The notes under the pieces: generated by a model
The model's database searches: none
Told to the model about the DNA's origin: nothing
What the model saw: the letters and a program-made list of their open reading frames with translations, nothing else
Position numbers and translations under genes: made by a program
Shown here: piece after piece, positions 57,502 to 59,882 of the stretch
Position numbering within the stretch: the stretch's first letter is position 1
How the letters are laid out: the number at the start of each line of letters is the position of its first letter
NCBI RefSeq assembly: GCF_029917005.1
Contig: NZ_CP123967.1
Location: forward strand, 2,976,001-3,040,000
DNA: 64,000 bases
Reading direction: 5' to 3'
Origin: Tessaracoccus lacteus
Lineage (GTDB): Bacteria > Actinomycetota > Actinomycetes > Propionibacteriales > Propionibacteriaceae

Positions 57502-57507
57502 TCGGTC

Positions 57508-57696
57508 CCCTGAGCCGCACCCCGGTTCCCTGAGCCACACCCGGTTCCCTGAGCTCGTCGAAGGGCGCCGAGCGCAGCGAGGCGCAACTCGGGTTGACCC
57601 TTCGCTCCGCTCAGGGCGTTTCGACAGGCTCAACGACCCGGAATCGGTTCCCTGAGCCGCACCCGGCTCCCTGAGCCGCACCCGGTTCCCTGAGCT
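57508..57696. repeat. Left part of a palindrome-rich repeat array
   Basis: Holds CCCTGAG units separated by Pro/His-like CCGCACCC segments, then one copy of GTCGAAGGGCGCCGAGCGCAG ... CCCTTCGCTCCGCTCAGGGCG and TTTCGACAGGCTCAACGACC. The two halves of GAAGGG...CCCTTC can pair. Interrupted by the IS element at 57697 and resumed at 59159. Confidence 0.8.
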
Positions 57697-57714
57697 TGAT
57701 GCTCCTATGTGGTG

Positions 57715-58923
57715 TCAAGCGGTTGTGAGCCATTCTCTGTAGCGGGTGGTGAGGGTGTCGTTGCGCAGTGTTCCGCGTTCGATGCCGGAGATGCGGGCTG
57801 GCCAGACGCCGAGTGCGTGGCCGGCTTGGGTGGTGGTGAGGCCTTTGGCGTGGCGGAGGGGTCTGAGGTCGTTGATGGGTGGGACCACGGGTGGGGTCCA
57901 GATCGCGGTGATGATCAGGTGGGAGATGTAGCGCTTGAGGCAGCGGGTCGCTTCGCGGCGGGTTTTGCCTTCTGCTTGTTTCTTCGCGAGGTAGGCGATC
58001 GTGTCAGGATCGATGCGGGCTCTGGCCAGGGCGATGGTGTGTAGGGCCCGGTTCGCGCGTCGGTCTCCGCCGCGGTTGAGGCGCATCCGGTGGGTTTTGC
58101 CGGAGGAGGCGGGGATCGGGGCGACGCCGCAGAGTTTCGCGAACGCTGCCTTCGAGTGGATCCGGGTCGGGTCGTCGCCGACGGTGACCAGCAGTTGGGC
58201 GGCGGAGATCACCCCGACCCCGACGAGATCGAGGACGCCGGGTGCTGTCTGGGCGACCAGGGTCTGCAGCTGGGGGTTGAGGAGGTTGATCTCGTCGTCG
58301 AGGTCACGGATCCGTCGCGCCAGGGACCGCAGCGCGGTCATGGTGGAGGACTGGTCGACGGGGCCGTGGGGTCGGCAGGCGGCCAGCTTCGCGTGGAGGG
58401 CCTTCCCAGTGAGTCGGCGGTAGGTGTCGCGGACCTGGTCCGGGGCGGTCACGAGCAGGCTTTTGAGTTGGACGATGGCCTGGGTGCGGGCCTTGACCGC
58501 GGACTCCCGCGCCGTCAGGAGGACCCGGATCGCTTCAACATTGCCGGTGCCGGGTTTCGGCAGGGGGAGGGTCTCGCCGGTCAGGAGGGTGCGGGCGGCC
58601 AGGATCGCGTCCAACGGGTCGGTCTTGCCATGGAGTCTGCGGGCGGCGCGTTTCGGGCGGATCACCTCACGCACTGCGATCCCGGCCCGGGTCAGGAACC
58701 GGGACAGGCCCGCCCCATACGACGAGGTTCCCTCGACCCCGACCAGTGCGACCGTCCCGAACGAAGTGACGAAGTCCAGCAGCTGGCGGTACCCGGTGAG
58801 ACTGGTCTCGATCTCCAGGTCGCCGAGGAGTGCCCCGGTGGTGTGGTCGAGGACCGCGACGTGGTGGGTGGCGAGATGGGTATCGACTCCCGCTACCACT
58901 GTGGATGGATGGGTTGGCATCAT
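57715..58923 (-). CDS. IS110-family transposase (DEDD type) with a C-terminal helix-turn-helix
   Basis: Recombinase of about 402 residues. The RuvC-like N-terminal domain has AGVDTH (Asp14), VGVEGTSSYG (Glu64) and KTDPLDA (Asp102, Asp105). The Tnp20 domain follows, with the nucleophilic serine in APIPASSGKTHRMRLNRGGDRRANRALH (about 269-296). The last 50 residues add LRHAKGLTTTQAGHALGVWPARISGIERG, a Cro/C1-like helix-turn-helix, not part of the core family. Start at ATG 58923. IS110 enzymes use a bridge RNA from the element's non-coding end to pick target and donor; the long upstream end (58924-59158) is the likely source. Confidence 0.92.
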   Translation of the reverse strand: MMPTHPSTVVAGVDTHLATHHVAVLDHTTGALLGDLEIETSLTGYRQLLDFVTSFGTVALVGVEGTSSYGAGLSRFLTRAGIAVREVIRPKRAARRLHGKTDPLDAILAARTLLTGETLPLPKPGTGNVEAIRVLLTARESAVKARTQAIVQLKSLLVTAPDQVRDTYRRLTGKALHAKLAACRPHGPVDQSSTMTALRSLARRIRDLDDEINLLNPQLQTLVAQTAPGVLDLVGVGVISAAQLLVTVGDDPTRIHSKAAFAKLCGVAPIPASSGKTHRMRLNRGGDRRANRALHTIALARARIDPDTIAYLAKKQAEGKTRREATRCLKRYISHLIITAIWTPPVVPPINDLRPLRHAKGLTTTQAGHALGVWPARISGIERGTLRNDTLTTRYREWLTTA

Positions 58924-59158
58924 GTGAGGTGTCGCCTTTCAAGGGGGGTGACACCTGCTCGGGGACCAGGCAGTCAGGACGCTGACGGCGGCTTGCCAAT
59001 CAAGCCCCAGGCTCCTATCAAGACATGCCACGGGTCCCCGGGCAGGACTCCGAGAATGTGTCCCCGCCCCGGGCGGAGTGGACAGATCAAACCCAAGACA
59101 CGAAGTCAGTCGAAGGGAGAGCCACACCCCGCCGAGACGAGGACCTAACAAGTATCAG
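58924..59158 (-). ncRNA. Putative bridge RNA region of the IS110-family element
   Basis: 235-nt non-coding end upstream of the transposase, on the same strand. It contains GC-rich inverted stretches (CCGCCCCGGGCGG around 59065; GGTGTCAC/GTGACACC near 58950). On the minus strand it includes CCCTTCGAC (plus 59109-59117), identical to one side of the target repeat, as a target guide would be. No such RNA is shown to exist; this is inferred from the family. Confidence 0.45.
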
Positions 59159-59882
59159 CGTCGAAGGGCGCCGAGCGCAGCGAGGCGAAGACCCGGCCCC
59201 GAGGCATTCACCCACCAGGACCCTTCGCTCCGCTCAGGGCGTTTCGACAGGCTCAACGACCCGGAATCGGTTCCCTAAGCCACACCCGGCTCCCTAAGCC
59301 ACAACCGGCTCCCTGAGCTCGTCGAAGGGCGCCGAGCGCAGCGAGGCGAAAACCCGGCCCCGAGGCATTCACCCACCCAGGACCCTTCGCTCCGCTCAGG
59401 GCGTTTCGACAGGCTCAACGACCCGGAATCGGTTCCCTAAGCCACACCCGGCTCCCTAAGCCACACCCGGTTCCCTGAGCTCGTCGAAGGGCGCCGAGCG
59501 CAGCGAGGCGAAAACCCGGCCCCGAGGCATTCACCCACCCAGGACCCTTCGCTCCGCTCAGGGCGTTTCGACAGGCTCAACGACCCGGAATCGGTTCCCT
59601 AAGCCACACCCGGCTCCCTAAGCCACACCCGGTTCCCTGAGCTCGTCGAAGGGCGCCGAGCGCAGCGAGGCGAAAACCCGGCCCCGAGGCATTCACCCAC
59701 CCAGGACCCTTCGCTCCGCTCAGGGCGTTTCGACAGGCTCAACGACCCGGAATCGGTTCCCTGAGCCGCCCCGGTTCCCTGAGGCGCACCCGGTTCCCTG
59801 AGCCACAACCGGTTCCCTGAGGCGCACCCGGTTCCCTGAGCCACACCCGGTTCCCTGAGCCTGTCGAAGGGCCCCGAAGCGA
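59159..59882. repeat. 162-bp tandem repeat array, right part
   Basis: GTCGAAGGGCGCCGAGCGCAG starts at 59160, 59321, 59483 and 59645: periods of 161, 162 and 162 bp. Each unit holds facing segments (GAAGGGCGCCGAGCGCAGCGAGGCG against CCCTTCGCTCCGCTCAGGGCG) able to form a hairpin, then TTTCGACAGGCTCAACGACCCGG and a run of TCCCTAAGCCACACCC-type units. The tail (59755-59850) is about five 19-bp GGTTCCCTGAG units and closes with CCCTGAGCCTGTCGAAGGG. Short frames here are artefacts of the repeat. Confidence 0.9.

Follow-up and report, generated by a model that had tools for sequence, protein, structure and literature searches.

An IS110-group insertion sequence in Tessaracoccus lacteus, probably guided to a high-copy repeat by a bridge RNA, and a possible one-base core

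The 64,000-nucleotide stretch of the Tessaracoccus lacteus genome analysed here (the window) contains an IS110 element beside a repeat, and nine bases of that repeat, CCCTTCGAC, recur in the non-coding end of the element. The initial annotation read the recurring string as the left target guide of a bridge RNA and offered two outer ends for the element, with the string being flank and not guide if the inner end were the true one. The locus raises the question of where the element ends and whether the second CCCTTCGAC directs it to its target. Both strings are present, the flanking one and an exact second one at 59109-59117 that occurs once in the element, as is the annotated transposase gene, whose domains are found. 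The element, its gene and its junctions are as follows.

57698-59159, minus strand: whole insertion sequence, 1462 bp (six identical copies, and unoccupied repeats at loci L004, L005 and L006)
57715-58923, minus strand: IS110 transposase/recombinase, 402 aa (DEDD RuvC domain, Tnp domain with serine motif, weak C-terminal HTH)
59160-59168, minus strand: left target flank CCCTTCGAC, target outside the element (flank comparison of copies)
57688-57697, minus strand: right target flank AAGCTCAGGG (flank comparison of copies)
57698-57706, minus strand: right end AGGAGCATC (left donor), the final base of which is the shared C

The transposase matches PF01548 (E=1.7e-23) and PF02371 (E=5.8e-19), and NF033542 above its cut-off. 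Residues D14, E64, D102, D105 and S274 do not vary among 12 aligned proteins (the window protein and 11 relatives), and a G--P----SG motif is present at residue 266. HTH_31 at residues 353-386 falls just below its cut-off (25 bits, with a cut-off of 27), and this HTH-like tail (window 57715-57869), which lies beyond the usual IS110 domains, is matched in four of the 12 members, window protein included, or in 4/7 of the proteins covering the region, as five are cut before it. A single-sequence search of PDB sequences with the transposase gave no match; its profile matches the solved ISCro4 and IS621 proteins. The non-coding DNA comprises 236 nt upstream of the transposase gene and 17 nt downstream, and long subterminal inverted repeats were not found (no 11-13 bp inverted match with two or fewer mismatches within 30 nt of the ends), the longest exact inverted match in the 70 nt of the ends being 6.

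A DNA search of the 3.05-Mb single-contig genome finds six identical 1462-bp copies. In the frame of the initial annotation all have CCCTTCGACG to the left and (A/G)GCTCAGGG to the right, with divergent sequences further outward, and none is at a site unrelated to the match: all six sit in CCCTTCGAC^ARGCTCAGGG sites of one repeat. Cutting after the C of CCCTTCGAC gives the joined flanks CCCTTCGAC^AAGCTCAGGG at five copies and CCCTTCGAC^AGGCTCAGGG at L006, and the 48-nt joined-flank junction is identical to nearby unoccupied repeats at L004 (three places), L005 (two) and L006 (four). Because the joined flanks are identical to unoccupied repeats at three of the six copies, the ends are placed at 57698 and 59159; the other copies and empty sites proposed as the means of fixing them do exist. 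The annotated end at 59158 was right as the outer of the two candidates and wrong by one base (57697-59158 becomes 57698-59159), and the inner end at about 59108 is refuted by the six copies, which are identical while their flanks diverge outside the repeat. As the copies exclude the inner end, the CCCTTCGAC at 59109-59117 belongs to the element. Behind a further CCCTTCGAC lies a 54-bp left-end relic (L007:1501-1554, genome 3049569-3049622), with one base of the guide stretch changed.

The target is abundant. There are 279 genome occurrences of CCCTTCGACNNGCTCAGGG (intact copies), 220 of them with A first, and none of the reversed pattern; CCCTTCGAC alone occurs 395 times versus 46 for the reversed pattern, and, judged by sequence, the six element copies account for 12 of the 395 with their left flanks and guides. 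That all six insertions have the right half carries little weight, since 279 of the 395 have it anyway, and neither does the A at all six, which 220 of the 279 sites have. The annotated palindromic target is indeed a repeat, but an imperfect palindrome, with 10 of 19 positions equal to its own reverse complement. The window copy adjoins and interrupts a tandem array of four 162-bp units (59159-59803), and arrays of a 19-bp unit flank the element on both sides (in the regions 59159-59803 and 57503-57695). A REP-associated tyrosine transposase (PF01797), a possible spreader of the repeat, has no match in the genome, and is present in five of 14 control genomes.

The left end of the element appears to encode a conserved structured RNA, with the following predicted parts.

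58946-59165, minus strand: predicted bridge RNA region, match of covariance model R1 (outermost 6 bases fall in the flank)
59109-59117, minus strand: left target guide (LTG) CCCTTCGAC, 9/9 match to the left target, covariation over 27 elements
59088-59096, minus strand: right target guide (RTG) TTGGGTTTG, able to pair with CAAGCTCAG by six Watson-Crick pairs and three wobbles
59007-59018, minus strand: probable left donor guide (LDG) ATAGGAGCCTGG, resembling the right end ATAGGAGCATC in sequence only
58978-58986, minus strand: right donor guide (RDG) GTCAGCG with handshake bases TC, positions 10-13 of which covary with the left end

The aligned left ends of 21 elements, including the window element, have a consensus of two stem-loops with internal loops, in keeping with the two internal guide loops that folding was expected to reveal. 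Changes on both sides are found in 22 of the 31 consensus pairs, a number reached in none of 500 shuffles and far lower in slid controls, and paired cells amount to 90.6% in the consensus structure, versus 73.5% in shuffled and 33-46% in slid alignments. The single-RNA fold of the window element is modestly better than its shuffles (z -2.5, 1/200), and the target-loop part folded alone gives z -1.7 (11/200). With covariance model R1, made from 21 relatives with the window element held out, the sole significant match in the 64 kb of the window is 58946-59165 (73.5 bits, E=1e-16), the next having 8 bits (E=0.86); in the genome, where 150 of 3689 first-look candidates were scored, the six matches at E<=0.001 are the six copies. 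Among 28 further loci, 16 relatives absent from the model match at E<1e-10, with other non-model relatives, such as the distant kin of L012, weak or absent among the covariance matches listed. The model matches upstream of the transposase gene only, and an Rfam search of the element and its surroundings gave six matches, none at gathering score. The CCCTTCGAC at 59109-59117 is predicted to lie in the first internal loop of the bridge RNA.

Guides and targets were compared over 27 elements, one copy per element, having the right-end motif TAGGAGC[AGT]TC and a placeable left end; further copies, elements lacking the motif, and elements with an unplaceable left end are outside the set, and 14 were checked afterwards. 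The left-end rule was drawn up after guide matches were already visible, the candidate agreeing with relatives was chosen where the rule gave two, the left ends of L042, L067, L068, L096, L111 and L138 were set by eye, and the RTG anchors used in anchored tests were likewise read by eye. For multi-copy elements divergence fixes the left end only to a few bases, because the targets share bases. Relatives have the same layout as the window element, with other sequences.

The LTG stretch of the window element matches its own flank at 9/9, and the best of 26 other flanks tried in the same left end matches at 8/9. Over the 27 elements the LTG matches its own left target at a mean of 8.41/9 versus 6.77 when permuted (none of 20000 as high; exact in 13/27), although these permutation counts overstate independence because the elements are akin to one another, and cluster tests answer this only in part. 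The result is the same (0/20000) when each 60% cluster contributes one element (n=12), without the six elements placed by eye (n=21), and for elements seen in at least two copies (n=9); it holds also for 19 cluster representatives and without the window element. In the 14 elements outside the set the LTG is exact in three and not exact in four with C at the model start, and seven lack a clean start. The reading of the match as a left target guide is thus borne out: it lies within the element and in the loop of a conserved RNA structure that is predicted to bind the target, and across relatives the guides covary with the targets.

The other guides behave similarly in anchored tests of the 27 elements, in which the RTG covaries with right-target positions 10-14 and the RDG with right-donor positions 10-13; when the entire left end was scanned unanchored for the right target there was no excess, so the signal comes from the anchored test only. 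The LDG is assigned by resemblance, the right end hardly varying among elements. L001, the window's copy, and L114 have the same RTG and right target AAGCTC, and differ in LTG and left target. L114, L115 and L116, in G275, are a related element at another repeat, GGTCTCGAC^NAGCTCGACC, with 101 sites in G275. The Microvirga elements L038 and L042 are a natural reprogramming pair, with 90.5% identity between their transposases and a left target guide that has changed along with the flank.

What do donor and target share? CT stands at both junctions as annotated, but fails as a core dinucleotide, only the C being common to donor and target. We number this C position 9, because the top strand of IS621 is cut after position 9 in the text available from PMC11208158. 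Position 8 is A in 25/27 targets and T in 27/27 donors; the U at this position of the donor loop pairs with the target in 25/27 and with the donor in 0/27, and the target-loop base is A in 20 of the 27 and G in five, both able to pair with the donor, with variation too small for a permutation test. At position 7 pairing of donor loop with target is seen in 27/27, with three kinds of pair (0/5000 permutations; 43/5000 for 12 cluster representatives), and pairing of target loop with donor in 23/27 (3/5000), cognate comparisons over the 27 elements being null. There is no handshake at position 6, where target loop versus target is slightly high (76/5000). On the other side of the cut, the right-hand N10 pairs with the RTG in 26/27 and the left-hand N10 with the RDG in 27/27, and the crossed comparisons are null. 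Together these patterns suggest a one-base core (C), in contrast to the CT core of IS621 described in the available parts of PMC11208160 and PMC11208158.

Empty sites speak to the same point. The left base after the cut is G in 6/6 copies. L002 is without a comparable unoccupied neighbour, and the neighbours of L003 differ at six bases, yet have the expected A. At L001 the base directly following the cut is G in four near-identical neighbours, in accord with the offset first annotated, and also in 3/3 genome sites that share the wider context; these are ambiguous, counting against the A rule at L001 unless its own unit carried A. The retrieved flanks of G043 contain eight distinct unoccupied sites, all with the right-hand base C and none with the left-hand T. 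G275 is mixed at the junction: three sites in retrieved flanks all have G, although most listed target sites have A (74 A, 23 G and 3 C by hand count among 100 matches listed), and an empty-site search for G142 gave no match.

We conclude that a bridge RNA very probably guides this IS110-group insertion sequence, with the life cycle proposed below. Its ends, its target, the conservation of RNA structure, and the covariation of guides with target and donor and at the handshake are read here from the sequences themselves; transcription, processing, cleavage position and present activity of the element we infer. The transposase would excise the element as a circle, and the joining of right and left ends would create a promoter from two half-sites.

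57713-57718, minus strand: -35-like TTGACA, right end
59151-59156, minus strand: -10-like GATACT, left end

The junction of such a circle has a sigma70-like TTGACA-18 nt-GATACT arrangement with 10/12 consensus bases, judged by its letters, and the linear ends of the window element score 8. Over 27 elements the junction score averages 9.26, compared with 7.33 for linear ends, at which two relatives reach 9, and 6.46 for shuffled sequences; a scan of the linear window found no promoter scoring 9/12 or more. From the junction, GCATC|GCTGATAC under a one-base core, this promoter would drive a bridge RNA that starts near 59145, ends near 58950 and is some 190-200 nt long; its donor-binding loop would pair with the joined ends of the element. 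The recombinase would then cut the two top strands immediately 3' of the one C they share and swap them, whereupon each loop could pair with its partner's bases at positions 7-8. This should yield CCCTTCGAC|element|A(A/G)GCTCAGGG without net duplication of the target, and in this model the joined flanks of insertions restore CCCTTCGAC(A/G)(A/G)GCTCAGGG.

Several other explanations were weighed. If the outer end lay at about 59108, the CCCTTCGAC at 59109-59117 would be target flank and no guide, and the relic at L007 does stop close to that point; the chance of this is practically nil, with six copies identical out to 59159 and differing beyond the shared target, and with the same layout recurring in relatives with other sequences. 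There is a very slim chance that protein contacts suffice for the transposase to recognize the repeat, and that the left end resembles the repeat as a leftover or by coincidence. The HTH-like tail would suit such contacts, and for REP-targeting insertion sequences of other families target choice is attributed to the transposase itself (available text of PMC1525189), but guide and flank change together across elements, and they also shift jointly between L038 and L042 despite 90.5% identity of the transposases. We regard it as highly improbable that the six copies do not move and spread only as passengers when the repeats were copied: all are in repeats, some of them in arrays, but the six are identical, intact and well separated, and have different flanking repeat units.

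A two-base core C-N, as in IS621, with the N mismatch resolved afterwards, is unlikely, but has the CT precedent (in the accessible parts of PMC11208160 and PMC11208158) and is compatible with the G-bearing neighbours of L001 and the three G sites in the G275 flanks, which fit a G target. Against it, the left N tracks the donor guide and the right N the target guide, with null crossed comparisons, the empty sites of L004, L005 and L006 together with the eight G043 sites indicate that the right N derives from the target, and the left N is G in 6/6 copies. Returning to the one-base core, we think it reasonably likely that a broad IS110 lineage extending across the order and class of the window's host and into Microvirga recombines at a single base pair (C), with crosswise reading of positions 7 and 8 after strand exchange compensating, and that at least two members have been naturally reprogrammed to different high-copy repeats (279 sites here, 101 in G275).

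The features tested place the element in the bridge-RNA IS110 group, where it would work like IS621 except for the CT core. It has a DEDD domain and Tnp serine, a long upstream non-coding end without long subterminal inverted repeats, a promoter-like junction sequence, and two internal loops with guides matching target and donor. According to the portions of PMC11208160 and PMC11208158 that describe it, IS621 likewise has a DEDD and serine Tnp recombinase with the bridge RNA in its left end, the guide order LTG, RTG, LDG, RDG with a nine-base LTG, a circle-junction promoter, non-cognate pairing at position 7, and, in E. coli, insertion in high-copy palindrome-like repeats; non-cognate covariation at position 7 is also described for IS110 orthologues in the text available from PMC11208158. 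The window element differs in its target and in sharing one base (C) between donor and target rather than CT, with the L001 junction noted as an exception. Position 8 belongs to the core in IS621, whereas in this lineage donor and target differ there and pair crosswise as at position 7. The window protein, of 402 aa with an HTH-like tail, compares with an IS621 chain of 328 aa, to which it is linked by profile only and not by single-sequence search.

The ISEc21 seekRNA system of the IS110 group, as far as PMC11187229 is available, resembles the window element in its upstream non-coding region, circle-junction promoter, lack of target duplication, and the placing of the bottom-strand match 5' of the top-strand match in the RNA, but its target is a linear stretch in other insertion sequences, not an extragenic palindromic repeat as here. 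ISPa11, ISPpu9, ISPpu10 and ISRm19 are IS110-family elements that also lie in REP sequences, although in Pseudomonas and Sinorhizobium hosts and in other repeats (available text of PMC1525189). ISPa11 is treated as an IS1111 member in the part of PMC11187229 available; of the features of that group, the window element shows neither the subterminal inverted repeats of about 11-13 bp nor a guide RNA downstream of the gene.

Among the open-licence PMC papers listed by literature searches, none names the window element or a one-base core in its title or the opening of its abstract, and one comparison of natural guides and targets kept CT-core guides only (in the section available of PMC11208160). 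In the elements described here, natural target and donor guides can be read outside the CT-core group, and an insertion sequence is aimed at a repeat with hundreds of sites. If the one-base core is true, donor and target sequences of such recombinases would be less constrained than those of IS621, and the crosswise pairing rule could be tested in a second lineage. In plasmid records the best full-length match to the element is 50.4% identical (Paenarthrobacter), and 15 records reach 60-80% identity, by ranking necessarily over shorter stretches. The same genome also codes for four more distant IS110 transposases, at 494648, 653024, 935758 and 2353291, with 33-37% identity over part of their length.
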